From: Ancylobacter sp. WKF20
Lineage (GTDB): Bacteria; Pseudomonadota; Alphaproteobacteria; Rhizobiales; Xanthobacteraceae
Direction: 5' to 3'
NCBI RefSeq assembly: GCF_029760895.1
Contig: NZ_CP121679.1
Span: 3,330,001 to 3,394,000 of the forward strand
Length of the DNA: 64,000 nt
The notes below the pieces were generated by a model that saw only the letters and a list, made by a program, of their open reading frames with translations, had not been told where the DNA came from and ran no database searches. Of the stretch, positions 3,741 to 62,006 are shown piece after piece. A program made the translations under genes and the position numbers. Numbering within the stretch: the stretch's first letter is position 1; every line of letters starts with the position of its first letter.

Positions 3741-3831
3741 TACCTTCACCATCAAGGATTTGAGCAATATTGTGGCAATATCTGCCTGCTACCTTGCGGC
3801 CTCTACATTTCGCTTGCGATGAAAGCTGGTC

Positions 3832-49746: not shown

Positions 49747-50229
49747 TCAATGGCCGAGATACTGGGCGTCCGAGACCTGCTCCATCCAGGTGACCACCTT
49801 GCCATCGAGCTCCTCGGCAAAGGCGAAGTGCGACATGGCCTCGGTCGCGCGCGCCCCGTGCCAGTGGCGCAGGTTCGGCGGAATCCAGACGACATCCCCC
49901 GCCGCGATCTCCTCGACTGGCCCGCCTTCCTTCTGCACCCACCCCCGGCCGGAGATGATGAACAGCGTCTGGCCGAGCGGATGGGTGTGCCAGGCGGTGC
50001 GTGCGCCGGGCGCGAAGCTGACCGTCGCGCCGCTGATGCGCGAGGGAGCATCGCCACGGAAATGGCCGGAGATGCGGACATTGCCAGTGAAGAACTCCGC
50101 CGGACCCGGCGCCATCGGGGAATCCTTGGCGCGGACGATCCTCAGATCCGCACCCGGCGCGGGTGCCGGCTCCGCGACGCTGGCGGTCGCGAGAGCCGAG
50201 AGGGCGATGCCGGTGGCGATCTTCTTCAT
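49747..50229 (-). CDS. Cupin-domain protein, (R)-mandelonitrile lyase-like, secreted
   Basis: A 160-residue single-domain cupin with an N-terminal Sec signal (MKKIATGIALSALATASVA). The metal motifs read HTHPLGQTLFIISGRGWVQ (cupin motif 1) and PPNLRHWHGA (motif 2), which provide the His ligands. The arrangement resembles bacterial cupin hydroxynitrile lyases, so a carbonyl/cyanohydrin or related C-C lyase activity is possible. A signal peptide is unusual in that family. Next gene is a cytochrome c. Confidence 0.75.
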   Translation of the reverse strand: MKKIATGIALSALATASVAEPAPAPGADLRIVRAKDSPMAPGPAEFFTGNVRISGHFRGDAPSRISGATVSFAPGARTAWHTHPLGQTLFIISGRGWVQKEGGPVEEIAAGDVVWIPPNLRHWHGARATEAMSHFAFAEELDGKVVTWMEQVSDAQYLGH

Positions 50230-50322: not shown

Positions 50323-50706
50323 TCAGTTGCTCGGCGGTTGGCCTTGCAGATAGGCGATGATCGCCGCGCGATCCGCCGCGTTCGTGACCGCGACGGTCAT
50401 GGTCGTGCCCTTCACCATGGCGCGGGGATTGGCAAGGAAGCTGTTGAGCTGGGCGGCATCCCAGGTGATCCCGAGATCGCGCAGGCCCTGCGAGTAGCGC
50501 GCGCCCTCAAGGCTGCCGGCCTTGCGACCGACGATGCCGCTGAGGCTCGGGCCGATGCGGTTCTGGCCGGGCTCCAGGGAGTGACAGGAGGCGCAGCGGG
50601 TGCGGAACAGCCGGTCACCATTGGCCTCCTGCGCGCCGGCCGCAGGGGCGAGCACCAGCAGGGCAAGGAACGGGACGGCGGATAAAGCGCGGAATCGGGC
50701 GGACAT
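50323..50706 (-). CDS. Class I cytochrome c
   Basis: A 127-residue periplasmic c-type cytochrome with a Sec signal (AVPFLALLVLAPAAGAQ). One haem is bound at CASCH, with a probable axial Met in KGTTMTVAV. ATG 50706 is chosen over the upstream ATG near 50727. It sits between the cupin gene and the FAD amine oxidase gene on the same strand, suggesting an electron acceptor for a periplasmic dehydrogenase, perhaps the molybdenum hydroxylase farther right. Confidence 0.87.
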   Translation of the reverse strand: MSARFRALSAVPFLALLVLAPAAGAQEANGDRLFRTRCASCHSLEPGQNRIGPSLSGIVGRKAGSLEGARYSQGLRDLGITWDAAQLNSFLANPRAMVKGTTMTVAVTNAADRAAIIAYLQGQPPSN

Positions 50707-50785
50707 GCGGTCTCCGGCAAGGCTCACGGGCGTCGGGTCCGTGCGGCCGGCGGCCGGGCACGGGGTTTCCGTGGCAAGCTAGGTA

Positions 50786-50817
50786 GGGGGAGACGGCGGG
50801 ATTAGCCCGCCTCCCCC
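50786..50817. terminator. GC-rich stem-loop in the amine oxidase/cytochrome c gap
   Basis: GGGGGAG-(ACG)-GCGGG pairs with CCCGCCTCCCCC, leaving a short bulge and a five-base loop. There is no U-run. It lies in the gap between the amine oxidase stop (50842) and the cytochrome c start on the same strand, so it could attenuate or stabilise mRNA. Confidence 0.4.
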
Positions 50818-50841
50818 GCATGGCGCTATGCGGGAGATTCA

Positions 50842-52086
50842 TCAATCCGCGGGGCGACGCAGCGCCGTCAGGGCCTCGTCGGCGGCGCGCATCCCGGACA
50901 TCAGCGCGCCATGGGCGGTCGAAAAGTCGGTCGGATGCGTGGCCTCGCCGGCGAAGAACAGCCGCTCATCGACAGGACGGGCGAGGCGGTCGCGCGCGGC
51001 GCGGTGACCGGGCAAGGCATGGCTGTAGCCGCCGCCGATCTCCGGCGTCGCGCCCCAGGCGGAGGCGCGCGCCGGGCGCAGCACGCGCCGCACATCCGCG
51101 CCGAAGAGGGCCGCGAGCTGGTCGGTGGCATGGGCGAAGGCGGCGTCGGTTCCCTCGTCACGCGCGCGGCGGGCGCCGGCGCCGCCGAGGAAGCACTCGA
51201 TAACGGGCCGGTCGAGGGGCCGGATGTAATAGGTGCCCGACGCCGGATCGTGGAAGTCGCCGTGCACATGGGTCTCCGCCTCGAAGGGCGAGGGACCGAC
51301 GATCTCCAGAAACAGCTTCTCGTTGCAGCCGAGCGGCAGATGCGCCGCCGCCGCGCGCCAGGGGTCGAGCGCGGCCGGCCAGCGGATCGCGTCGCCGGCG
51401 AGCACATGGGTGGAGACGGTGAGGATCGCCGCCCGGCAGCGCAGCGTGCCGCGCGAGGTGACGAGTTCGATGGCCGGTCCGTTGAGGTCGAGCCGTTCCA
51501 GCGGCGTCGCCAGATGCAGCGCCACATCGGCAGGGAAGCGGGAGGCGATCAGCGTGCCGTAGCCCGCCGGCAGGCGCCAGTTGAGCCCGGTCGAGGCGCT
51601 GTCATAGGCGGCATAGTCGGCGGCCGAGATGCGCTCCAGTTCGTCGCCGCTGATATAGCCGCTCAAGGCCTGGAGATAGGCGAGCCAGCGCTCGCCGGGC
51701 GCCACCGCGTCAAGGGCCCGGTCGCTGGGCGGCGGATCCGCGAGGAGCCGCCGGCTCCAGGCGTCGAACGCGTTGCCGGCCGCTTCCCACTCCGCCGGGA
51801 GCGCGCCGAGATCGCCGAATTGCTGGTCCCAGGCGCTGCGCCGCCGGTCCACGACGAAGCCGGCCGCCTCGGCGATCCGTGTCCACGGGTTGCGGTCGGC
51901 CGAATGCAGCCAGCCGCAGCCGAGATCGAGCGGCAGGCCGCGCATCAGGACGGTCGAGGCGCGCCCGCCAAGACGCGGCAGGGCCTCCAGCACGGCAACC
52001 GACAGGCCGCGACCGGCCAGCCGCCGGGCGGCGCCGATGCCGGCCGCTCCGGCCCCGATGATGGCGATGTCGCAGGCGTGGGTCAT
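50842..52086 (-). CDS. FAD-dependent amine oxidase family protein
   Basis: A 414-residue monoamine-oxidase/phytoene-desaturase-type flavoprotein. The N-terminal FAD motif is IAIIGAGAAGIGAARRLAGR, with the acidic ribose end in EALPRLGGRA. The C-terminal flavin-contacting segment is FFAGEATHPTDFSTAHGALM. It has no signal peptide. The start (52086) lies eight bases from a RIME-like repeat, so its 5' leader is made from the repeat. The substrate could be an amine or polyamine. Confidence 0.83.
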   Translation of the reverse strand: MTHACDIAIIGAGAAGIGAARRLAGRGLSVAVLEALPRLGGRASTVLMRGLPLDLGCGWLHSADRNPWTRIAEAAGFVVDRRRSAWDQQFGDLGALPAEWEAAGNAFDAWSRRLLADPPPSDRALDAVAPGERWLAYLQALSGYISGDELERISAADYAAYDSASTGLNWRLPAGYGTLIASRFPADVALHLATPLERLDLNGPAIELVTSRGTLRCRAAILTVSTHVLAGDAIRWPAALDPWRAAAAHLPLGCNEKLFLEIVGPSPFEAETHVHGDFHDPASGTYYIRPLDRPVIECFLGGAGARRARDEGTDAAFAHATDQLAALFGADVRRVLRPARASAWGATPEIGGGYSHALPGHRAARDRLARPVDERLFFAGEATHPTDFSTAHGALMSGMRAADEALTALRRPAD

Positions 52087-52094
52087 GCGTGGAT

Positions 52095-52202
52095 GCTAGA
52101 GCATTTTCCAGCGACGTGGATTTCTGTTCGCGACAGGAAAATGCGTCAGGCCAATAATTTAGAGCCCTGTTGGTGAGCTGGAGTTCACCCGGAAAGCTCT
52201 AG
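52095..52202 (+). repeat. RIME-like dispersed palindromic repeat, copy 2
   Basis: Same repeat family as 35533-35637 but in the opposite orientation. It starts CTAGAGCATTTTC, has the CGTGGAT, GTTCGCG and GAAAATGCGTC blocks, the conserved AATAATTTAGAGC, and ends in GAAAGCTCTAG. The central arms of the second module have diverged (GTGAGCTGGAGTTCAC). Its terminal CTAG supplies the TAG stop of the RibD-like gene. Confidence 0.8.
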
Positions 52203-52894
52203 GCCGGTTTCACCTTATAGCGAAGATGCACCACGCCGTGATCGAGCGTCTCGGCACTGAGGAACGACAGCGTCACCTTGCCGGCGAGCCCGTCCGGGCC
52301 GGCATCGACGATGGCCTCGCTGCCCGGCCGGGCATCAAGCGCGGGGGTGACGAGCACGCTGAACTCATCGACGAGGCCAGCGGCGAAGAAGGCGCCATTG
52401 GCGCGCGCGCCGCCCTCCACCGCAAGGCGCTGAATGCCGAACTCCCGCGCCAGAATCTCAAGCGCGGCCGCGAGGTCGATCTCAGCGTCCTCGGCGACGA
52501 TGTAGGAAACGCCATCGGCCGCGAGTTCGGCGAGGTGGCTGTCCGGCACATCCCGGCCGAGCAGGGCGATGGCGTGATCACCGCCGACGCTCGATCCCTT
52601 GAAGTGCACCTTGCCGGAGGGATCGAGCGCGATGGCGTAGCTCGCCGCACGCGTCGCGACATGGAGAGGGCGCGCGACCGCGCCGGGCGTCGCCGGCGGA
52701 TGCGGCACGCCCTTGGCCATCTCGGCCATCGTCACCCGCCCGACCAGCCAGGCATCGGCTTTCAGCGTGCCGTGGACCTGCTCATAGAGCCGGCCCCAAT
52801 CGGCGCGACCACCCTGCGGGCTGGCGGTGAACCGGCTCGGGTGCAGGCGCCCGTCGAGCGAAGTTTCCATCAGGCAGATGACATGGGGCTTCAT
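52199..52894 (-). CDS. RibD C-terminal-domain / dihydrofolate reductase-like protein
   Basis: A 231-residue NADPH-dependent reductase-like protein (RibD_C fold). HVICLMETSLDGRLHPSRF at the N-terminus and LAVEGGARANGAFFAAGLVDEF near residue 165 are typical. It is a standalone reductase without a deaminase domain. ATG 52894 has GAGGTG six bases upstream. It lies 60 bases downstream of the alcohol dehydrogenase gene on the same strand and may be cotranscribed. Its TAG stop is inside RIME-like copy 2. Confidence 0.78.
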   Translation of the reverse strand: MKPHVICLMETSLDGRLHPSRFTASPQGGRADWGRLYEQVHGTLKADAWLVGRVTMAEMAKGVPHPPATPGAVARPLHVATRAASYAIALDPSGKVHFKGSSVGGDHAIALLGRDVPDSHLAELAADGVSYIVAEDAEIDLAAALEILAREFGIQRLAVEGGARANGAFFAAGLVDEFSVLVTPALDARPGSEAIVDAGPDGLAGKVTLSFLSAETLDHGVVHLRYKVKPA

Positions 52895-52954
52895 GGGGCG
52901 CACCTCGGACGAAGGACCGCCGGCGATGGCCCGCCGACGGTCAGGGAAGGGATT

Positions 52955-54022
52955 TCAGGCCGCCTCAGGAAGCGGAAGCGAGGCCATGTCGATGACGAAA
53001 CGATAGCGCACATCGGCCTTTTCCAGCCGCTCGAACGCCGCGTTGATGTCCTCCATGCGGATCATCTCGACATCGGGCAGAACGCCGGCCTTGGCGCAGA
53101 AGTTCAGCATCTCCTGCGTTTCCGCGATACCGCCAATTGGCGAGCCGGCGATGCGGCGCCGGCCGAGCAGCAGTGGCACGGTGCTCGGCTCGGCCAGCGG
53201 GCCGATCTGGCCGACCAGCACTAGCGTCGCGTCGACATCGAGCAGCGGCACATAGGGGTTGATGTCGTGCTTCACCGGCACGGTGTCGATGATGAGATCG
53301 AAGCTGCTGGCGGCCTGCGCCATGGCCTGCGCGTCGCTCGACACCAGCAGGCGGTCGGCGCCCAGCGCCAGCGCGTCGGCTTCCTTGTCCCTGGTGCGGC
53401 TGAGCACCGTGACGTCCGCGCCCATGGCGGTGGCGAGCTTGACCGCCATATGGCCGAGCCCGCCGAGACCGACCACGCCGACGCGGCTACCCGGCCCGAC
53501 ATTCCAAGTGCGCAGCGGCGAATAGGTGGTGATGCCGGCGCAGAGCAGCGGCGCGGCCTTGGAAAGGTCCAGCCCTTCCGGCACGCGCAGCACGAATTCC
53601 TCGCGCGTCACCAGATGCTTGGAATAGCCGCCCTGGGTCGGCGCGGTCGGCTCGCAGGAAAAGCGGTCAGTGTCGCTATAGGTCTGCACCGGCCCCTTGC
53701 GGCAGAGCTGCTCGAGGCCTTTCCGGCACTGGTCGCAGCTCTGGCAGGAATCGACGAGGCAGCCCACCGCCACATGGTCGCCGACCGCGTAACGCTTGAC
53801 CTCATTTCCGACGGCGGTCACGCGGCCGATGATCTCGTGGCCGGGCACCAGCGGGTAGCGGCTCCAGCCCCAGTCATTGCGCGCCTGATGCAGGTCCGAA
53901 TGGCAAACGCCACAGAACAGCACCTCCATCGCCACATCGTTGGGCCGGAGTTCACGCCGCTCGAAATCATAGGAACTGAGCGGGGTCGTCTCCGAGCGCG
54001 CCGCATAGCCAACGGTCTTCAT
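52955..54022 (-). CDS. Zinc-dependent NADP alcohol/aldehyde dehydrogenase (YahK/CAD type)
   Basis: A 355-residue medium-chain dehydrogenase with intact catalytic zinc site (CGVCHSDLHQ; GHEIIG) and the four-Cys structural site CQSCDQC...C. The cofactor fold is VGLGGLGHMAVK. The sequence fits the YahK/cinnamyl-alcohol-dehydrogenase group that reduces aldehydes with NADPH. It is divergent from an MFS exporter, with two ATGA-N7-TCAT boxes between, so it belongs to the putative LysR regulon. Confidence 0.86.
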   Translation of the reverse strand: MKTVGYAARSETTPLSSYDFERRELRPNDVAMEVLFCGVCHSDLHQARNDWGWSRYPLVPGHEIIGRVTAVGNEVKRYAVGDHVAVGCLVDSCQSCDQCRKGLEQLCRKGPVQTYSDTDRFSCEPTAPTQGGYSKHLVTREEFVLRVPEGLDLSKAAPLLCAGITTYSPLRTWNVGPGSRVGVVGLGGLGHMAVKLATAMGADVTVLSRTRDKEADALALGADRLLVSSDAQAMAQAASSFDLIIDTVPVKHDINPYVPLLDVDATLVLVGQIGPLAEPSTVPLLLGRRRIAGSPIGGIAETQEMLNFCAKAGVLPDVEMIRMEDINAAFERLEKADVRYRFVIDMASLPLPEAA

Positions 54023-54348
54023 GGGCTTCTCCTGTGCTGTGCCGGGCCGCGCCGCCGCAGAGGCGCGGCGCCGGGATACCGCACCTGAATTAGGGCGCGC
54101 CGCCCGTCACGAGTAGAGCCGCCGCGACGCTAGCTCTCATGAAGGGCGTTCATCAATGGAAGCCGCGCATGCGAGTTTGCGCGCGATGGCCGGCGATTGA
54201 TGAGGCTCCCTCATCACGCCATGCGCCCTCCGGCCGGTAGTCCCCGGCCCGGCTGCCCCCTAGCCTCGATCCATCCCGCAGGCCGCGCCTCCCGCCACGC
54301 TGTTGCTCCGTGGCGACTGGCGCGCGCGCCCACTTCACTGGAATCATC
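54023..54348. promoter_or_regulatory. Divergent region with two ATGA-N7-TCAT boxes
   Basis: 326 bases without a gene between the alcohol dehydrogenase and MFS genes. It contains ATGAA-GGGCG-TTCAT at 54139-54153 and ATGAG-GCTCC-CTCAT at 54200-54214. The second is embedded in an 8-bp perfect palindrome (TGATGAGG/CCTCATCA). Their centres are 61 bases apart, near six helical turns, which suits a LysR tetramer binding two sites. No other strong signal was seen. Confidence 0.65.
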
Positions 54349-55557
54349 ATGCTGACCCACGATACGCCTGTCGCCGACGGCATGGCGGAGGCGACGGTCT
54401 CCCCTGCCGCGAACTGGGGCGCGGTCTTCGCGCTCTCGCTCTGCGTCTTCACGCTCATCGCCTCCGAATTCATGCCGGTGAGCCTGCTCACCCCCATCGC
54501 CACCGAACTGCGCGTCACCGAAGGGCAGGCCGGGCAGGCCATCGCCGTTTCCGGCGCCTTCGCCGTGGTGACGAGCCTGTTCATCACCGCCATCGCCGGC
54601 GGGCTGGACCGCAAGATCCTCCTACTGATCCTCACCGGCCTGATGATCCTCTCCGGCATCATCGTCGCCACCGCCCCGACCTACACCGTGCTGATGATCG
54701 GGCGCGCGCTGATCGGCATCGTCATTGGCGGCTTCTGGTCGATGTCGGCGGCGACCGCGATGCGGCTCGTGCCCAGCCCTCAGCTGCCGCGCGCGCTGGC
54801 CATCCTCAATGGCGGCAACGCGCTGGCGACCGTGGTCGCGGCGCCGCTCGGGAGCTTCCTCGGTGGGGTCATCGGCTGGCGCGGGGCGTTCTTCTGCGTC
54901 GTGCCGATCGCCGCGCTGGTGTTTTTCTGGCAGGCCGCCAGCCTGCCCACGATGCGGGTCGCACCGTCACCGGGTTCCGGGCACGTCTTCCGCCTGCTGC
55001 GCCGGCCGGTCGTCGCCTATGGCATGGCGGCGATGAGCCTGTTCTTCATGGGGCAGTTCACCCTGTTCACCTATCTGCGGCCGTTCCTCGAAACGGTGAC
55101 GCGAGCGGACCTCACGACCCTCTCGCTCCTGCTGCTGCTGATCGGGGTCACCGGCGTCATCGGCACGCTGCTGATCGAGCGCTTCGTGAAGACGGGGCTC
55201 TACCGCACGCTCATCGTCATTCCCGCGATGATGGCCCTCATCGCGGCGGCGCTGATCGGGTTCGGCACGTCGTTGATCGCTACCGCCGGCCTGCTCGGTG
55301 TCTGGGGCCTGCTCGCCACCTCGGCGCCGGTCGGCTGGTGGACCTGGCTGGCGCGGACGCTGCCGCGCGATGCGGAGGCCGGCGGCGGGCTGATGGTTGC
55401 CATGGTCCAGTTCGCCATCACGCTGGGCGCCACGCTCGGCGGCCTGCTGTTCGACACGAGCGGCTATGCAGCGACCTTCGGTGCCGCCGCCGGGATTTTG
55501 CTGATCGCCGCCGTGCTGGCCCTGCTCACCGGCCGACGCGCCTCGGCCACGAGCTGA
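54349..55557 (+). CDS. MFS transporter (AraJ/sugar-efflux/DHA1 type)
   Basis: A 402-residue transporter with twelve predicted helices. The first reads NWGAVFALSLCVFTLIASEF; the DHA1-type segment GRALIGIVIGGFWSM is present. ATG 54349 is chosen; the frame to GTG 54310 is possible. It is divergent from the alcohol dehydrogenase and preceded by two LysR-type boxes. It probably exports a small organic compound; the substrate is unknown. Confidence 0.84.
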   Translation: MLTHDTPVADGMAEATVSPAANWGAVFALSLCVFTLIASEFMPVSLLTPIATELRVTEGQAGQAIAVSGAFAVVTSLFITAIAGGLDRKILLLILTGLMILSGIIVATAPTYTVLMIGRALIGIVIGGFWSMSAATAMRLVPSPQLPRALAILNGGNALATVVAAPLGSFLGGVIGWRGAFFCVVPIAALVFFWQAASLPTMRVAPSPGSGHVFRLLRRPVVAYGMAAMSLFFMGQFTLFTYLRPFLETVTRADLTTLSLLLLLIGVTGVIGTLLIERFVKTGLYRTLIVIPAMMALIAAALIGFGTSLIATAGLLGVWGLLATSAPVGWWTWLARTLPRDAEAGGGLMVAMVQFAITLGATLGGLLFDTSGYAATFGAAAGILLIAAVLALLTGRRASATS

Positions 55558-55577
55558 GCGCCTCGGCCGGGGTGACC

Positions 55578-55617
55578 AAAAAGCGGCAGCCGCCCTCGTA
55601 GCGACGGGGGCGGCTGC
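55578..55617 (-). terminator. Intrinsic terminator between MFS and molybdenum hydroxylase genes
   Basis: A 14-bp stem (55586-55599 with 55604-55617, one G-U pair) closed by a four-base loop. On the minus strand it is followed within three bases by five U (A-run 55578-55582). It ends the minus-strand hydroxylase operon; on the plus strand it lacks a U-run but may still slow transcription of the MFS gene. Confidence 0.87.
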
Positions 55618-55669
55618 ATCTTCCGGTGCCGATGTTCGCGGGGCTTTGGCACCGAAAGCCGGAGAGAGC

Positions 55670-57907
55670 TCAGCCCGCAGTTCCCGTGAGCTTGGCGCGC
55701 GAGAGCGGCAGGCTGCGGATGCGTTGGCCGGTGAGCACCGAGGCCGCGTTCACCACCGCCGGCGGCACCCCCGGCAGGCCCGGTTCGCCAATGCCGCCCA
55801 TGGGCGCGCCGCTCTCGAGGATGCGGACATGCACCTTCGGCATCCGGTCGGGCGACAGGATCGGGTAGCCGTCATAGTTGCGGGCACGCGGCACGCCATT
55901 CTCGTAGATCACCTCTTCGAGCAGGGCGGAGGAGAGCCCGAGCGCCACCGCCGAATTCACCTGCGCCTCGATGATTGCCGGATTGACGATGCTGCCCGGG
56001 TCGATCGCCACCCAGACATGGTGGACGACGACCTCGCCGTCCCTCAGCGACACCTCGGCGATGGTCGCGACCTCGCTGCCGAAGGGCGAGGCCATGGCGA
56101 CGCCGCGCGCCCGGCGCGTGCCGTCCTCGGCGGTGAAGGGACCACGCTTCCAGCCGCCGGAAAGCGCCGCCACTGCCTCAATGAGGTTGCGATGGCGCGG
56201 GCTGTCCGCCAGCAGGCGCCGGCGCAGCTCATAGGGATCCTGCTTGCCGGCATCGGCCATCTCGTCGAAGAACGTCTCGTAGAAGAAGTCGTTCATCGAA
56301 TGCCCGACCGAGCGCCAGAAGCCGATGATGGTGGGATCATCGACATGGATATGGCCGACACGGCGGTTCGGGATCGCGTAGACCTTGCCGGCGATGCCTT
56401 CCACGGCCGAACTGTCGACCTTGTCGGCCGCGCGACCGAACCAGCGGCCGGTGGCGCCCTCGCCGACAGCCACCGCGCTCAACGCGACCGGCAGGCCGCT
56501 GGCGTCGAGGCCGGCGCGGAAGCGGGCGACGCTCATCGGCCGGAACGCATCGCGCAGGAACTCCTCCTCGCGCGACCAGATCACCTTGACCGGCCGTCCC
56601 GTGGCTTTCGCCAGCCGGATCGCCTGCTGGTAGGGATTGGCGGTCTGGTAGAGGAAGTGCCGGCCGAAGAAGCCGCCGAGGATCGGCGAGTGGATGATGA
56701 CCTTTTCGGGCGGAAGACCGGCGACCTTGGCCGCATCGGCCTGAAACATCTCCGGCGCCTGGTTGGGCGCCCAGACCTCAAGCGCTCCATCCGCGTTGAA
56801 CCGGGCAATGGCCGAGGGCGGCTCGAGCTGCGCATGGGAAAGATGCGGCGCATCGAAGCTGGCCTCGACGATGCGGGCAGCGCCTGCCAGTGCCGGGCCG
56901 ATATCGCCGTGGGTCTCGAAGGCAAGACCCTCGCCCCTGCGCGACTGGAGATCGGCGCGGTGCTTTTGCGAGGAATAGTCCGCCGGCATGACGCGGGCCG
57001 AGCTGTCGGGCTTCGCCTCGTCCCAGCTCACCTGAAGCGCCTCGACCGCGCGGCGGGCGCGCCACCAGCTGGAGGCGAGCACCGCGACCGCCCCTGGCAG
57101 ACGGTGAACCGAGTGGACGCCGGGCATCGCCCTGACCTCGGCCTCATTAGCGAGGGCAGCGGGCTCCTGGCCGAGCCGCGGCGCATGCTGGACGACAGCC
57201 TGCAGCATGCCCTCGACCTTCAGGTCGATGGCGTAGGTCGCCTTGCCGGTCGACTTGTCGCGGATGTCGATCCGGGCCACCGGCTTGCCGATCCAGCGGA
57301 AATCGGCGCGGGACCGCAGCGGGACATCCGCCGGCACCGGGAGCGCCGCGGCGGCGGTGGCGAGATCGCCATAGGGGATCGAGCGGTTGGACGCGGTGTG
57401 AATCACCAGGCCGGGCTGCGTCGAGAGCTCCGCCATCGGCACGCCGAGCTGGGTGGCGGCGGCCTGCAGCAGCATCCGGCGCGCGGCGGCGCCAAGCTTG
57501 CGCATCGTCTCATAGCTCATGCGCACCGACATGCTGCCGCCGGTGAAGCGGTAGCCGCCGATCAGCGTGTAGTCGGGACCGGGCGGCGCGCCTTCCACCA
57601 CGAATTGCGCGGGATCGACATCGAGCTCCTCGCCGACGATCTGCGCCATGGCGGTGAAGATGCCCTGCCCGCCCTCGATGAAGGCGCTGCGGAACAGCAC
57701 CGTGCTGTCCGGGCGGATCTGGATATAGGCGTTGACCCGCGTGCCCGGCACGATGGCGGGCGCTTCCTGGGCGACGGCACGTCCGCCCGCCGGCAGGGCG
57801 ACGCCCAGCACCAGCGCGCCGAGCGAGGCACCCAGAAAGCTGCGCCGCGACAGGTTGAGCGGCACGGCTTCCGGCGGGACGGTGGGGAGGGGGCTCATCT
57901 CGTTCAT
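55670..57907 (-). CDS. Molybdenum hydroxylase large subunit (IorB-like), Tat-exported
   Basis: A 745-residue molybdopterin-binding subunit of the xanthine dehydrogenase/aldehyde oxidase family. The N-terminus has a Tat signal (LNLSRRSFLGASLGALVLG), so the enzyme is periplasmic. Single-subunit Mo domains of this length with a Tat signal are typical of isoquinoline 1-oxidoreductase beta (IorB) and aldehyde-oxidising relatives. MGGIGEPGLPG near the C-terminus carries the conserved catalytic Glu. ATG 57907 with GAGGAG is preferred over GTG 57922. It pairs with the 2Fe-2S subunit encoded upstream; electrons probably go to cytochrome c. Confidence 0.88.
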   Translation of the reverse strand: MNEMSPLPTVPPEAVPLNLSRRSFLGASLGALVLGVALPAGGRAVAQEAPAIVPGTRVNAYIQIRPDSTVLFRSAFIEGGQGIFTAMAQIVGEELDVDPAQFVVEGAPPGPDYTLIGGYRFTGGSMSVRMSYETMRKLGAAARRMLLQAAATQLGVPMAELSTQPGLVIHTASNRSIPYGDLATAAAALPVPADVPLRSRADFRWIGKPVARIDIRDKSTGKATYAIDLKVEGMLQAVVQHAPRLGQEPAALANEAEVRAMPGVHSVHRLPGAVAVLASSWWRARRAVEALQVSWDEAKPDSSARVMPADYSSQKHRADLQSRRGEGLAFETHGDIGPALAGAARIVEASFDAPHLSHAQLEPPSAIARFNADGALEVWAPNQAPEMFQADAAKVAGLPPEKVIIHSPILGGFFGRHFLYQTANPYQQAIRLAKATGRPVKVIWSREEEFLRDAFRPMSVARFRAGLDASGLPVALSAVAVGEGATGRWFGRAADKVDSSAVEGIAGKVYAIPNRRVGHIHVDDPTIIGFWRSVGHSMNDFFYETFFDEMADAGKQDPYELRRRLLADSPRHRNLIEAVAALSGGWKRGPFTAEDGTRRARGVAMASPFGSEVATIAEVSLRDGEVVVHHVWVAIDPGSIVNPAIIEAQVNSAVALGLSSALLEEVIYENGVPRARNYDGYPILSPDRMPKVHVRILESGAPMGGIGEPGLPGVPPAVVNAASVLTGQRIRSLPLSRAKLTGTAG

Positions 57908-57918
57908 CGCGCCGCTCC

Positions 57919-58365
57919 TCACGCCTGCGCCGCGTGCCGGACGGCGGCGGCGATCGCGTTATAGGTGCCGCAGCGGCACAGATTGACCATGGCGGCGGCG
58001 ATATCCTCGTCGCTGGGCTTTGGGGTCTGCTTGAGCAGCCCGGTCGCCGCCATCACCTGGCCAGACTGGCAATAGCCGCATTGCGCGACCTGCTGCGACA
58101 CCCAGGCTTCAACGACCTTCTGCCCCACCGGATCCTGCGTCACCGCCTCGATGGTCATGATCTGGCTGCCCGCGACCGCGTCGACCGGCGTCACGCAGGA
58201 GCGGGTCGGCTGGCCATCCACCAGCACGGTGCAGGCACCACACTGAGCGAGGCCGCAGCCATATTTGGTGCCGGTAAGCCCGAGTTCATCGCGCAGCACC
58301 CAGAGCAGCGGCGTATCGGGCTCGCTGTCGAGGCGGTGCGTCTGTCCATTGATGGTGAGGTCCAC
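57919..58365 (-). CDS. Molybdenum hydroxylase small subunit, 2Fe-2S (IorA-like)
   Basis: A 148-residue protein with two 2Fe-2S clusters. The plant-type ferredoxin domain has Cys in YGCGLAQCGACTVLVDGQ and a following RSC; the C-terminal four-helix cluster is in QCGYCQSGQ and LCRCG. It transfers electrons from the Mo centre. GTG 58365 with GGAG upstream is chosen; TTG 58392 would add a short extension. It has no Tat signal of its own, so it would be co-exported with the large subunit. Confidence 0.9.
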   Translation of the reverse strand: MDLTINGQTHRLDSEPDTPLLWVLRDELGLTGTKYGCGLAQCGACTVLVDGQPTRSCVTPVDAVAGSQIMTIEAVTQDPVGQKVVEAWVSQQVAQCGYCQSGQVMAATGLLKQTPKPSDEDIAAAMVNLCRCGTYNAIAAAVRHAAQA

Positions 58366-58521
58366 CGTCAGTCTCCGTGCAAGAGGGCGCAAGACCGTCC
58401 GTGCGGCGCGGCCTGCGCGAGGCCAACACCCACGCGATCGCCGTCATGGCTTCCGTTTGGTCTGGTTCCAAATCTACGCGGTGACTGGCCGGCGCATTAG
58501 AGGCCCGCCTTGCTTGTCGCG

Positions 58522-58536
58522 ATGAGCCACGCTCAT
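58522..58536. promoter_or_regulatory. ATGA-N7-TCAT box upstream of the molybdenum hydroxylase operon
   Basis: ATGAG-CCACG-CTCAT, a perfect 5-bp-arm palindrome with T-N11-A spacing, about 160 bases upstream of the 2Fe-2S subunit start. It sits between that gene and the small membrane protein gene. Confidence 0.6.
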
Positions 58537-58546
58537 GAATGGGCGG

Positions 58547-58849
58547 TCAGAGCGGGCTGACAACCACGCGCTCCACCGCCCCGGCGCAGAGGGTCGTCCT
58601 GGCGCGGTTCATGCCGGAGCCGGACATATCCTCGTCCGCCGCGAGACCGGCGGCCACCGACGCATCGTCATCGTGGCGGCCGGGCGCGACGACCACGACG
58701 GGGGCGCCGACATCCTGCGCCACGCGGTCGCCCGCCGCGCTGTTGGGGAAGCACTGGACGAAAACGGCCGCGAGCACGATGGCCGCGAGCAGATAGCTCG
58801 TGCCGATGCGCCGGCCGTCGATGACATAGCGGTCGGGTTCATAGGACAT
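58547..58849 (-). CDS. Small predicted membrane protein (100 aa), unknown
   Basis: A short frame beginning MSYEPDRYVIDGRRIGTSYL with one hydrophobic helix (LLAAIVLAAVFVQCF) near residues 18-33, then a Gly/Ala-rich soluble tail. There is no strong Shine-Dalgarno. An upstream start at 58861 (MRKTMSYEP) is equally possible. It lies just upstream of the LysR box at 58522. No family recognised; it could be spurious. Confidence 0.45.
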   Translation of the reverse strand: MSYEPDRYVIDGRRIGTSYLLAAIVLAAVFVQCFPNSAAGDRVAQDVGAPVVVVAPGRHDDDASVAAGLAADEDMSGSGMNRARTTLCAGAVERVVVSPL

Positions 58850-58961
58850 GGTTTTTCTCATCCGTGGTGAGTGGCCCCCCAGCCGAAAATGTCGATCCCG
58901 CCCATCTACGTATGCGCGGCGGCGTTCGCACGCCGCTCGCCGAGATGTGAGCGGGTGGCGC

Positions 58962-59414
58962 TCAGCGCCGCGCCGTGGCGGTCAGCGGGAAGCGCCCGCG
59001 TGTCAGCAGCGGCGTCACCCCGCCCTCAAGCCGCCCCAGCCGGATCAGGCCGGGGGAATAGCGATAGCCGGCGTAATAAAAGACGAGATTGCCCCAGGGC
59101 GCGTAATAGGCGAGGTCGCCGGGCGCCTCTTCGGCGAACGGCCCACTCCCGGCCTCGGTGAGCTTGCACGGCAGATAGGCGATCTTCTCATTGGTCGCGT
59201 AGTCGTCGATCACCAGATCGAGCGGCAGCATCGCGGCGAACTCACGCGCCGCCGGCGTGTCGAACAGCGTCGCGGTGAAGGCGTGTTGGTCAAAGGCGAA
59301 GTCGACTTTCATGAACGCTCTCTCCGCGACCTGGCCAAGCGCGGGGCGTGCGCCGGCCGCAAGCGGCATGGCGACACCCATGGCAACCAGCCCCAACGCT
59401 CGCCGGCGCGTCAT
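58962..59414 (-). CDS. Cyclophilin-like fold protein, secreted (Tat-type signal)
   Basis: A 150-residue protein with a short twin-arginine-like N-terminus (MTRRRALGLVAMGVAMPLAA) and a mature cyclophilin-like domain (Cyclophil_like2/DUF369-type: FDTPAAREFAAMLPLDL; KIAYLPCKL; GDLAYYAPWGNL). Such domains lack clear isomerase activity and their role is unknown. A GTG start at 59441 is possible. An imperfect ATGA-N7-TCAT box lies about 135 bases upstream. Confidence 0.75.
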   Translation of the reverse strand: MTRRRALGLVAMGVAMPLAAGARPALGQVAERAFMKVDFAFDQHAFTATLFDTPAAREFAAMLPLDLVIDDYATNEKIAYLPCKLTEAGSGPFAEEAPGDLAYYAPWGNLVFYYAGYRYSPGLIRLGRLEGGVTPLLTRGRFPLTATARR

Positions 59415-59549
59415 CACCCTCGTCACGGTTTGCCTCTCCACGGCACGACCGCCCCTGCGCAGCGGGGACGGCCAGCCTCCCGGTTGTTCCGACCCTCAAT
59501 CTAACGGCGGAGGCGGCGCTGGATTAGAGGCTGGCTTCGGCATGGAGAT

Positions 59550-59564
59550 ATGAGCGCCGGTCAT
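59550..59564. promoter_or_regulatory. ATGA-N7-TCAT box upstream of the cyclophilin-like gene
   Basis: ATGAG-CGCCG-GTCAT, four of five arm positions paired. It is in the divergent region between the cyclophilin-like gene and the LysR gene. Confidence 0.5.
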
Positions 59565-59683
59565 CAATCGAGCCCCGCGTCATCCGCCATGACGGGTAAT
59601 AGGCTCGTGACCGCCGGATCATCGCCAACGCCCGCGACGCCGCTTCCTACCTTGCATTCATGAGGTACAATAGACCCTCTCTT

Positions 59684-59698
59684 ATGATGAGGGTTCAT
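59684..59698. promoter_or_regulatory. ATGA-N7-TCAT box overlapping the LysR gene's ribosome-binding site
   Basis: ATGAT-GAGGG-TTCAT, ending two bases before the ATG at 59701. The GAGGG inside it is the only Shine-Dalgarno-like sequence, so binding here would block the gene's own expression. Confidence 0.55.
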
Positions 59699-59700
59699 GG

Positions 59701-60594
59701 ATGGCGCGCGAGAACATCAATGACCTGCTGGCCTTCATCGCCGTGGCGCGGGAGCGCAGCTTCACGCGCGCCGCCGCGCGCATGGGCGTCTCGCAATCGG
59801 CGCTGAGCCACACCATCCGCCAGCTCGAGGCGCGCCTCGGCGTTCGCCTGCTGACGCGCACCACCCGGGCCGTCTCGCCCACGGAGGCCGGCGAGCGCCT
59901 GCTGGAGGGCATCGGGCCACATTTCGACGAGATCGAAGCCCAAGTCGACGCGCTGAATGCGCTGCGCGACAAGCCCGCCGGCACCATCCGCATCAGCGCC
60001 TCGGATTACGCCATCAGCAGCGTTCTCTGGCCGAAAATCCAGAGCTTCCTGCCCCGATTTCCCGACATCAAAGTCGAACTCACCCTCGATAACGGGCTGA
60101 CCGATATCGTGACGGAACGCTTCGATGCCGGTGTGCGCATGGGCGAGCAACTCGCCAAGGACATGATCTCCGCCCGCATCGGGCCGGATTTTCGTTTCAC
60201 CGTCGTGGGTTCGCCCGGCTATTTCGCCGCGCATCCGCGGCCCTCGCACCCCGAGGAACTCGTCCAGCACCGCTGCATCAATTACCGCTTCCAGACCTCA
60301 GGCGGCCTCTGGGCCTGGGAGTTCGAGAAGGACGGCCGAGAGCTCAAGATCCGCGTGGACGGCCAAGTGGCCTTCAGCAACATCTTCCACGTGCTGGACG
60401 CGGCCCTTGGCGGCGCCGGCCTTGGCTTTGTGCCGGAGGAGATCGCGCGCGATCACATCAGCGCCGGTAGGCTCATTCCCGTGCTGGAGGATTGGTGCGC
60501 CTATTGGGACGGCTTCTATCTCTACTACCCCAGCCGCCGCCAATCCTCGCCGGCCTTCGTGGCGCTTGTCGAAGCCCTGCGCCACCGCACGTGA
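59701..60594 (+). CDS. LysR family transcriptional regulator (oxidoreductase cluster)
   Basis: A 297-residue LysR protein. HTH at residues 20-40 (TRAAARMGVSQSALSHTIRQ) and a dimerisation helix; effector domain with ISASDYAISSVLWPKIQSFL near residue 100. It is the only regulator within the 52.9-62.8 kb oxidoreductase cluster, and an ATGA-N7-TCAT box abuts its start codon. It is the best candidate reader of the six boxes around it. The effector is unknown. Confidence 0.88.
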   Translation: MARENINDLLAFIAVARERSFTRAAARMGVSQSALSHTIRQLEARLGVRLLTRTTRAVSPTEAGERLLEGIGPHFDEIEAQVDALNALRDKPAGTIRISASDYAISSVLWPKIQSFLPRFPDIKVELTLDNGLTDIVTERFDAGVRMGEQLAKDMISARIGPDFRFTVVGSPGYFAAHPRPSHPEELVQHRCINYRFQTSGGLWAWEFEKDGRELKIRVDGQVAFSNIFHVLDAALGGAGLGFVPEEIARDHISAGRLIPVLEDWCAYWDGFYLYYPSRRQSSPAFVALVEALRHRT

Positions 60595-60783
60595 GGCGCG
60601 CCGTCTCTGGCTTGATGACGTGCCCGTCTTTCTCGACGCAGTCGATACCGGCCGCGTCGCGCATGCACTGCTCGGCGCAGCCTGACGCTGGCGATCGCCT
60701 GAACGTCTACGCTCTCGGCCCACCATAGGGCGGAAATGGAGCGGGCCTCAGACCACCATGTCGGCGAATGACCGATGCAATTG

Positions 60784-60798
60784 ATGAGAGGAGCTCAT
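60784..60798. promoter_or_regulatory. ATGA-N7-TCAT box upstream of the alpha/beta hydrolase gene
   Basis: ATGAG-AGGAG-CTCAT, a perfect 5-bp-arm palindrome 90 bases upstream of the hydrolase ATG. The 293-base gap it lies in (60595-60887) holds no convincing gene. Confidence 0.6.
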
Positions 60799-60887
60799 AA
60801 CGACGCGCGTTATCGAACGACTAGTGGCACGGGGCCACCCTCCTCACACTCCATCCCACGCCAGGTTCAACGTGATGGAGACACGCC

Positions 60888-62006
60888 ATGACTACCTCCA
60901 CTGATAAAGCGCCGACCGCCCCTACGCCTCGGGATGACAGCCTTGATCGCCGCACGATGCTGAAGGTCGCCGGTGCTGGCCTCGCCGCCGTCGGTCTCAC
61001 CTCCCTGCTGGATACCACCGAGGCGACCGCGCAGGACATGTCGCGCGGCGCGGCGAATTTCTACACCAGCGACAGGGTCACGCTGCAAAAAGTTATCTTC
61101 AAGAGCCAGTACCGGATGGATGTCGCCGGCAACCTGATCGTGCCGAAGGACATCAACCGCAGCGCCCGCAACCCCGCGATCATCGTTGGCCATCCTATGG
61201 GGGCGGTGAAGGAACAGAGCGCGACGCTCTACGCGACGAAGATGGCCGAACAGGGCTTCGTGACTCTCGCCATCGACCTGCCCTTCTGGGGCGAGAGCGC
61301 CGGCGAGCCGCGCAACATGGTCTCGCCGGATCTCTATGCCGAGGCGTTCAGCGCCGCTACCGACTATCTCGGCACCCAAGCCTTCGTCGACCGCAACCGC
61401 ATCGGCGTCATCGGCATCTGCGGTTCGGGCAGCTTCGCCATCAGCGCCGCGAAAATCGACCCGCGGCTCCGCGCGGTCGCGACCGTCTCGATGTACGACA
61501 TGGGCGCCGCCAACCGGAACGCGCTGAACCATTCGCTGACCCTGGAGCAGCGCAAGGCCATCATCGCCGCCGCCGCCGATCAGCGCTATGCGGAGTTCGA
61601 AGGCGGGGAGGTCGCGGTCGCCGGCGGCACCGATCTCGTGCTCACCGCTGACACCCACCCGATCCAGCGCGAGTTCTACGATTTTTACCGCACGCCGCGC
61701 GGCGAGGTCACCCCGGCCGGCGCGTCCCCGCTTCGGACGACGAAGCCGACGGTGACCAGCAATGTGAAGTTCATGAATTTCTATCCCTTCAACGACATCG
61801 AAACGATCTCCCCGCGTCCGATGCTGTTCATCAGCGGCGACCAAGCGCATTCGCGCGAGTTCAGCGAAGATGCCTACAGGCGGGCCGCCGAACCGAAGGA
61901 ACTGATCTGGGTGGCCGGTGCCGGTCACGTCGATCTGTACGACCGCGTGGATCTCATCCCCTTCGACAAGCTGACGAGCTTCTTCAGCCAGCATCTGTCC
62001 GCCTGA
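60888..62006 (+). CDS. Tat-exported alpha/beta hydrolase (dienelactone-hydrolase/YcjY type)
   Basis: A 372-residue serine hydrolase with a twin-arginine signal (LDRRTMLKVAGAGLAAVG) near residue 20. The nucleophile elbow is in GICGSGSFAIS, the acid is in FISGDQAHS and the His in GAGHVDLYDR. The family acts on esters, lactones or dienelactones. It is probably controlled by the LysR gene just upstream. With the periplasmic molybdenum hydroxylase it may process an oxidised or esterified aromatic compound (inference). Confidence 0.82.
   Translation: MTTSTDKAPTAPTPRDDSLDRRTMLKVAGAGLAAVGLTSLLDTTEATAQDMSRGAANFYTSDRVTLQKVIFKSQYRMDVAGNLIVPKDINRSARNPAIIVGHPMGAVKEQSATLYATKMAEQGFVTLAIDLPFWGESAGEPRNMVSPDLYAEAFSAATDYLGTQAFVDRNRIGVIGICGSGSFAISAAKIDPRLRAVATVSMYDMGAANRNALNHSLTLEQRKAIIAAAADQRYAEFEGGEVAVAGGTDLVLTADTHPIQREFYDFYRTPRGEVTPAGASPLRTTKPTVTSNVKFMNFYPFNDIETISPRPMLFISGDQAHSREFSEDAYRRAAEPKELIWVAGAGHVDLYDRVDLIPFDKLTSFFSQHLSA

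Follow-up and report, generated by a model that had tools for sequence, protein, structure and literature searches.

LysR-type regulators form a very large family, and in most cases the sequence of the protein does not reveal its operator. Oliver et al. (2016; PMC5002191) describe a conserved upstream inverted repeat and a second site near −35 for GcvA, MetR, OxyR, IlvY, CynR, and LysR, and autorepression in LysR systems whose sites overlap the promoter of the regulator gene. Here we describe a locus in a 64-kb window of Ancylobacter sp. WKF20 (the whole stretch of DNA analyzed, positions 3330001-3394000 of genome G000), in which six boxes of the form ATGA-N7-TCAT lie around a gene for a LysR-type regulator. 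From sequence comparisons, we consider it very probable that these boxes are T-N11-A recognition sites through which the LysR encoded at 59701-60594 would activate nearby target genes and repress its own. The evidence supports a genuine LysR regulon, local in extent and of a kind already known, with an operator that is unusually readable: in this subfamily there is a clear correspondence between a residue and a base.

Compared with BenM/CatM (ATAC-N7-GTAT), the window system has the same domains, N7 spacing, and T-N11-A geometry. The recognition helix of the window LysR, SQSALSH, contains His37, which aligns with BenM residue 34 (Arg34) and matches that specificity residue in its place on the helix. 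The two systems differ in their arms (ATGA/TCAT rather than ATAC/GTAT) and in the presence of several promoters around one regulator in the window, and the match to BenM is confined to the N-terminal half (residues 8 to 128). Oliver et al. (2016; PMC5002191) examined a single divergent intergenic region for each regulator, whereas the window has six target promoters, each with an oriented element. Both Pfam domains of the window LysR scored above their cut-offs (PF00126, 86.7 bits; PF03466, 124.6 bits), and its closest relatives among named records come from Ancylobacter and Rhizobiales (90 to 94% identity). GcvA (NF008352; 147.3 of the 288 bits needed) and YafC (NF040888; 146.7 of 470 bits) were the best-scoring named NCBIfam models yet fell far under their cut-offs. 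The closest full-length PDB relatives are 3hhg and 3t1b/3szp, which we take to be the regulators CrgA and AphB. P. aeruginosa CrgA, according to PMC6422896, has mirror-repeat sites, one of which is rich in G, and these are unlike ATGA-N7-TCAT. A literature search, which was not exhaustive, found neither the string ATGAN7TCAT nor a paper joining a LysR with isoquinoline 1-oxidoreductase, a cyclophilin-like protein, and an alcohol dehydrogenase; another combination of terms led to two papers of seemingly unrelated content.

Clustering and conservation of the boxes

The window contains eight exact ATGA-N7-TCAT palindromes, six of which are clustered, with starts at 54139, 54200, 58522, 59550, 59684, and 60784. 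An earlier note on this DNA had listed these six and called them intergenic; each was found where the note had placed it, and none lies inside any gene annotated in the window. Measured to start codons as listed or inferred, the box lies 116 bp from the start of the alcohol dehydrogenase gene (54022), 134 bp from that of the major facilitator superfamily (MFS) gene (54349), 129 bp from IorA (58392), 108 bp from the cyclophilin-like gene (59441), 2 bp from lysR (59701), and 89 bp from the hydrolase gene (60888). Interrupted T-N11-A palindromes accompany both the regulator's own gene and its putative targets, at six sites here and in relatives.

One hundred dinucleotide shuffles of the window gave a mean of 0.41 boxes and a maximum of 3. 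The whole genome, a single contig of 4,630,237 bases, held 26 boxes, and the reversed-pattern control held 0. About 0.03 boxes would be predicted in 6.66 kb from the 20 genomic boxes outside the cluster; the cluster has six, for which the Poisson probability computed from the genome count is ~1e-12. The expectation in the earlier note, one box per 65 kb at even base composition, proved conservative because the G+C content of the window is 66 to 72% in 4-kb steps. The note's proposal of a local LysR regulon gains support from the far lower density outside the cluster (20 other boxes in 4.63 Mb) and from the relatives, in which boxes are kept before orthologous genes even where gene order differs.

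We also scored all 26 genomic boxes by flanks learned solely from the related loci L021 to L095. The six cluster boxes took ranks 1 to 6, the lysR box (−2.38) narrowly exceeding the next genomic box (−3.05). A regulon made up of all 26 boxes was rejected: the 20 others scored lower with the relatives' flanks, and 7 of them lie inside open frames predicted by a simple frame caller. The two remaining exact boxes of the window, at 3819 and 32549, lie outside the cluster, score low with composite flanks, and seem unrelated.

We compared 80 loci with LysR relatives, which together with the window made 81 sequences. All six boxes were present, in the same order, in L017, L019, and L020. Outside this near group (L016 to L020), in loci of L021 to L095 whose main regulator has His37 and in which gene order is often different, 49 of 73 matches to target orthologues had a box within 300 bp upstream. 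Eleven other orders of the ATGA letters together gave 1 of 73. The box preceded 21 of 23 orthologue matches for the hydrolase, 17 of 23 for the MFS protein, 7 of 13 for the alcohol dehydrogenase, 2 of 8 for the cyclophilin-like protein, 2 of 5 for IorA, and 0 of 1 for the flavodoxin. No target orthologues of at least 40% identity were found in the Gln37 or Tyr37 loci of L021 to L095.

The composite element and the lysR promoter

Alignment of the target promoters by their boxes, in gene orientation, revealed that the box is the head of a longer composite, ATTS-ATGA-N7-TCAT-RA-N3-CATGC-N12-CTAAT-N19-TAnnnT. Counted from box base one, its bases are ATT at −4 to −2, CA at 20 and 21, GC at 23 and 24, and CTAAT at 37 to 41, followed by the −10-like bases TA at 61 and 62 and T at 66. 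The TAnnnT element, seen in relatives, begins 19 bp after the end of CTAAT; a hexamer starting from the T of CTAAT would be 17 bp away, in the −35 place. The transcription start inferred from TAnnnT in relatives lies ~66 bp downstream of the box center. This layout is compatible with a recognition site centered near −65 and a second, activating site near −35, as in other LysR systems.

The composite, with up to three mismatches, had 10 matches in the whole genome and 0 in the reversed control. Six of these belong to the window region and the other four to 2.278 to 2.301 Mb, so that all 10 are near this LysR or its 60% identical paralogue. The element before the molybdenum hydroxylase genes has three mismatches because its CTAAT is one base closer than in the pattern. 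An additional element upstream of the cytochrome c gene carries ATGA-N7-GCAT, with one arm mismatch, and this promoter seems to be a further regulon member beyond the first six boxes. No members were found elsewhere in the genome at three or fewer composite mismatches, a threshold that weaker elements would escape. The regulon outline in the earlier note thus stood for its six boxes and was incomplete in missing the longer element, the extra promoter at 50801-50846, and the paralogue with its own elements.

Of 398 genomes drawn from across the phylum, 17 had the composite with no more than one mismatch (reversed control, 0). We counted a genome as having this LysR if it had a match at an E value of 1e-85 or better, and scored the five best candidates per genome. 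The composite was present in 15 of 63 genomes with a match, the window's own included, versus 2 of 335 others (P = 2e-11), some of which may hold such a LysR because five candidates were scored in each. Of the 26 survey sites, 21 had a listed LysR no more than 21 kb away, and 13 of the 21 were at a lysR start or no more than 50 bp from it; three of the five sites not near a listed LysR are on another contig of G322. An A/T form of the composite was found in 6 of 63 genomes with the LysR match versus 1 of 335 others (P = 8e-5), and one of the matching genomes (G322) has a mixed ATGA/TAAT box. Locus L291 (G322:C779) has three composites in 11 kb, one of them upstream of an MFS gene that shares 70% identity with its window counterpart, and the only LysR within the 20 kb read is 29% identical; this locus may belong to a regulon that acts in trans. 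Among the scored candidates of G365, a genome placed in the same genus as that of the window, none matched this LysR at 1e-85, and the regulon may therefore be patchy.

The box at lysR itself was found at exactly −17 of the lysR start in 38 of the 81 sequences. Upstream of lysR we also found the composite in antisense, with no more than 2 of 11 anchor mismatches, in 33 of 57 His37 genes with a −17 box, versus 0 of 228 control positions shifted from it. In the relatives, this antisense element extends over the region of the lysR start and over promoter bases resembling TATAAT. Because of that overlap, it is probable that LysR represses its own gene through the box at its start. The seven-base spacer contained GGAG, GAGG, or AGGA in 28 of the 57 genes, so the operator and the ribosome-binding site are often interleaved.

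Residue 37 and the class of box

We collected 191 LysR relatives of at least 45% identity, having dropped 37 below that value, 2 partial sequences, and 7 duplicates. Residue 37 was His in 144, Gln in 36, Tyr in 8, and another residue in 3. In the interval from −160 to +15 relative to the start, 74 of 144 His37 genes and 0 of 36 Gln37 genes had an exact ATGA-N7-TCAT box. The A/T-type box AT[AT]A-N7-T[AT]AT lay in the same interval in 26 of 36 Gln37 genes and in 15 of 144 His37 genes, and shuffled upstream regions contained a box in 0.3 to 1.1% of cases. Clustering at 80% identity left the pattern in place (ATGA box in 32 of 77 His37 and 0 of 23 Gln37 clusters; A/T box in 13 of 77 and 15 of 23).

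A scan of 179 loci by the outer anchors, with the arms ignored, gave 149 raw sites, of which ~25 would be expected by chance at even composition; 146 distinct sites were tabulated. Loci with His37 alone had ATGA/TCAT at 75 of 111 sites, and loci with Gln37 alone had it at 0 of 22, 19 of the 22 being A/T type. Loci with both His37 and Gln37 contributed 9 sites (4 ATGA/TCAT, 2 ATAA/TAAT, 3 other), and Tyr37 loci contributed 4, none of them ATGA/TCAT.

For the first of two trees, which used −17 boxes, and for a column scan, three of 188 His, Gln, or Tyr proteins were left out for being no longer than 200 amino acids. Residue 37 was the best predictor of box class among 297 columns (87 rows), with a normalized information of 0.86 against 0.54 for the next-best column, and it called the class correctly in 97.7%. 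At −17 alone, the box state was clear for 83 His/Gln rows, and 82 of them obeyed the rule of His with ATGA and Gln with A/T; the one that did not was L177, in which an exact ATGA-N7-TCAT lies further upstream. The two trees implied 13 and 8 changes of residue 37, with 8 independent pairs in each over all branches. In BenM, Arg34 contacts DNA directly and gives specificity, according to a study of CatM engineering (PMC6628147).

The covariation with residue 37 makes it likely that the boxes belong to this LysR. With somewhat better than even confidence, we further suggest that residue 37 by itself switches specificity for the third base pair of each half-site, with His reading G:C and Gln reading A:T or T:A, and that duplicated regulators used changes there to insulate parallel regulons sharing a portable 46-bp cassette. 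If this is true, one amino acid predicts the operators of uncharacterized members of the subfamily. As the promoter architecture is conserved across genera and paralogues in the same genome have different operators, the recognition rule is testable. Five loci (L146, L152, L153, L154, and L160) have LysR relatives of 43 to 46% identity with Glu37 and another sequence against the start codon, which in L154 is the palindrome TGTGCG-N6-CGCACA, with an even spacing.

The paralogue in the genome, ~1.1 Mb from the window LysR, has its own element set at 2277811-2301237 (L258, L259), and four composites with up to three mismatches lie within ~15 kb of it. Its five elements have the left arm ATGA throughout, with right arms GTAT, ACAT, ATAT, ATAT, and GTAT. 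In its neighborhood are an IorAB pair of its own (55% and 34 to 38% identical), an aldo-keto reductase, two short-chain dehydrogenases, a cytochrome P460, and a CMD-cupin protein.

Proposed regulation and genes of the locus

In the proposed mechanism, a LysR tetramer would sit on the upstream box and, with effector, would shift to the downstream part of the composite, activating the target. The six target promoters would be those of five of the first six boxes and that of cytochrome c, with its imperfect box. At lysR, the protein bound to the box in the ribosome-binding region and, in many relatives, to the antisense composite over the promoter would repress transcription of its own gene. The dehydrogenase, periplasmic molybdenum hydroxylase, cytochrome c, exporter, and hydrolase would make a coherent stress or detoxification set, in which the cytochrome c could be the electron acceptor of the hydroxylase. 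The handling of carbonyls or electrophiles as the function is a guess, as is the identity of the effector, for which a reactive carbonyl or similar small electrophile seems likeliest.

Several observations weigh against this proposal. The lysR box of the window has no CATGC/CTAAT part, so that only the box is left there. Of the 73 target matches, 24 lack a box, some perhaps because they are inside operons, and 6 of the 49 target boxes double as a box against a lysR start. One MFS gene (L047) entered the count twice, and many of the loci are closely related; together with the six shared boxes, this means that the 73 matches are not independent trials. Neither box type was near the start in 63 of 144 His37 and 10 of 36 Gln37 genes, and of the 15 His37 genes with an A/T-type box, 8 also have an ATGA box and 7 do not. 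The eight Tyr37 genes are mixed in box type. On supported branches, the two trees retain 2 and 1 independent His/Gln pairs, too few for a sign test to reach significance, and the covariation may reflect few events. The paralogue could, moreover, share the window sites.

That last point leads to the possibility that the main reader of the boxes is a different regulator, for which the Tyr37 paralogue is the most plausible candidate, or that both proteins read them. The same element architecture flanks the paralogue, and the left arm ATGA is common to both sets, but its right arms are never TCAT, whereas five of the six window promoter elements have TCAT and one has GCAT. The TCAT form accompanies His37 in relatives, even though one Tyr37 gene, L045, still has ATGA/TCAT, and we regard this assignment as quite improbable. 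Less easily dismissed, while still unlikely, is a LysR that acts at its targets purely as a repressor and is released by effector without activation. Bound LysR could block the −35 region. Activation is favored by the CTAAT-like bases at the −35 place and by a box center ~66 bp upstream of the inferred start, a position usual for LysR activators (PMC5002191).

We rejected the idea that the clustering arose by chance or that it follows from base composition or from the sequences of start codons and ribosome sites. The unrelated look of the boxes at 3819 and 32549 and the 7 genomic boxes inside open frames speak for such an origin, but the shuffles, genome count, reversed and letter-order controls, and conservation across genera leave it almost no probability. 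We give equally little credence to the boxes being RNA or DNA hairpins, such as terminators or ends of mobile elements, rather than protein sites. They are intergenic inverted repeats, as hairpins would be, but their arms have just four bases, covary with a residue of one protein, and stand at a fixed position relative to CATGC, CTAAT, and the −10-like element. Recognition by the window LysR, with target activation, is the reading we prefer.

The features of the locus are listed in Table 1. Gene names are given at family level because no NCBIfam model among the matches listed for ten locus proteins reached its cut-off; the alcohol dehydrogenase, for example, scored 322.1 of 470 bits needed with the Ahr model (NF047908), and the hydrolase scored 57.2 of 400 bits with the UilS lactonase model (NF047920).

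Table 1. Features of the regulator locus (window positions unless marked G000)
Feature	Position	Strand	Basis or remark
LysR-type regulator, 297 amino acids	59701..60594	+	Pfam HTH_1 and LysR_substrate above cut-off
lysR box, ATGA-tgagggt-TCAT; probable autorepression site	59684..59698		Ends 2 bp before lysR start codon
Composite before cyclophilin-like gene	59523..59568	−	Box 59550-59564; 0 mismatches
Composite before molybdenum hydroxylase genes	58495..58540	−	Box 58522-58536; 3 mismatches
Composite before MFS gene	54196..54241	+	Box 54200-54214
Composite before alcohol dehydrogenase gene	54112..54157	−	Box 54139-54153
Composite before hydrolase gene	60780..60825	+	Box 60784-60798
Composite upstream of cytochrome c gene	50801..50846	−	ATGA-N7-GCAT
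Cyclophilin-like protein (Cyclophil_like2), candidate target	58962..59441	−	Pfam; divergent from lysR
IorA-like [2Fe-2S] subunit, candidate target	57919..58392	−	Pfam, NCBIfam
IorB-like molybdopterin subunit	55670..57922	−	Pfam, NCBIfam, sequence; twin-arginine-like signal
MFS exporter, candidate target	54349..55557	+	NepI nearest NCBIfam, below cut-off; start codon inferred
Zinc alcohol dehydrogenase, candidate target	52955..54022	−	Aldehyde reductase Ahr nearest NCBIfam, below cut-off
RibD_C reductase	52199..52903	−	Pfam
Alpha/beta hydrolase, candidate target	60888..62006	+	UilS lactonase nearest NCBIfam; twin-arginine-like N terminus
WrbA-like flavodoxin near regulator		+	Pfam/NCBIfam scan
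Cytochrome c, candidate target of 50801-50846 element	50323..50727	−	
Cupin gene downstream of cytochrome c gene	49747-50229	−	
Paralogous LysR, Tyr37	2285142-2286029 (G000)		60% identical to window LysR

A 104-amino-acid open frame beside the 58522 box (58547-58861, minus strand) had no Pfam or NCBIfam match and is probably no gene. The IorA and IorB genes probably form one operon because their frames overlap, and the RibD_C reductase gene is perhaps cotranscribed with that of the alcohol dehydrogenase.

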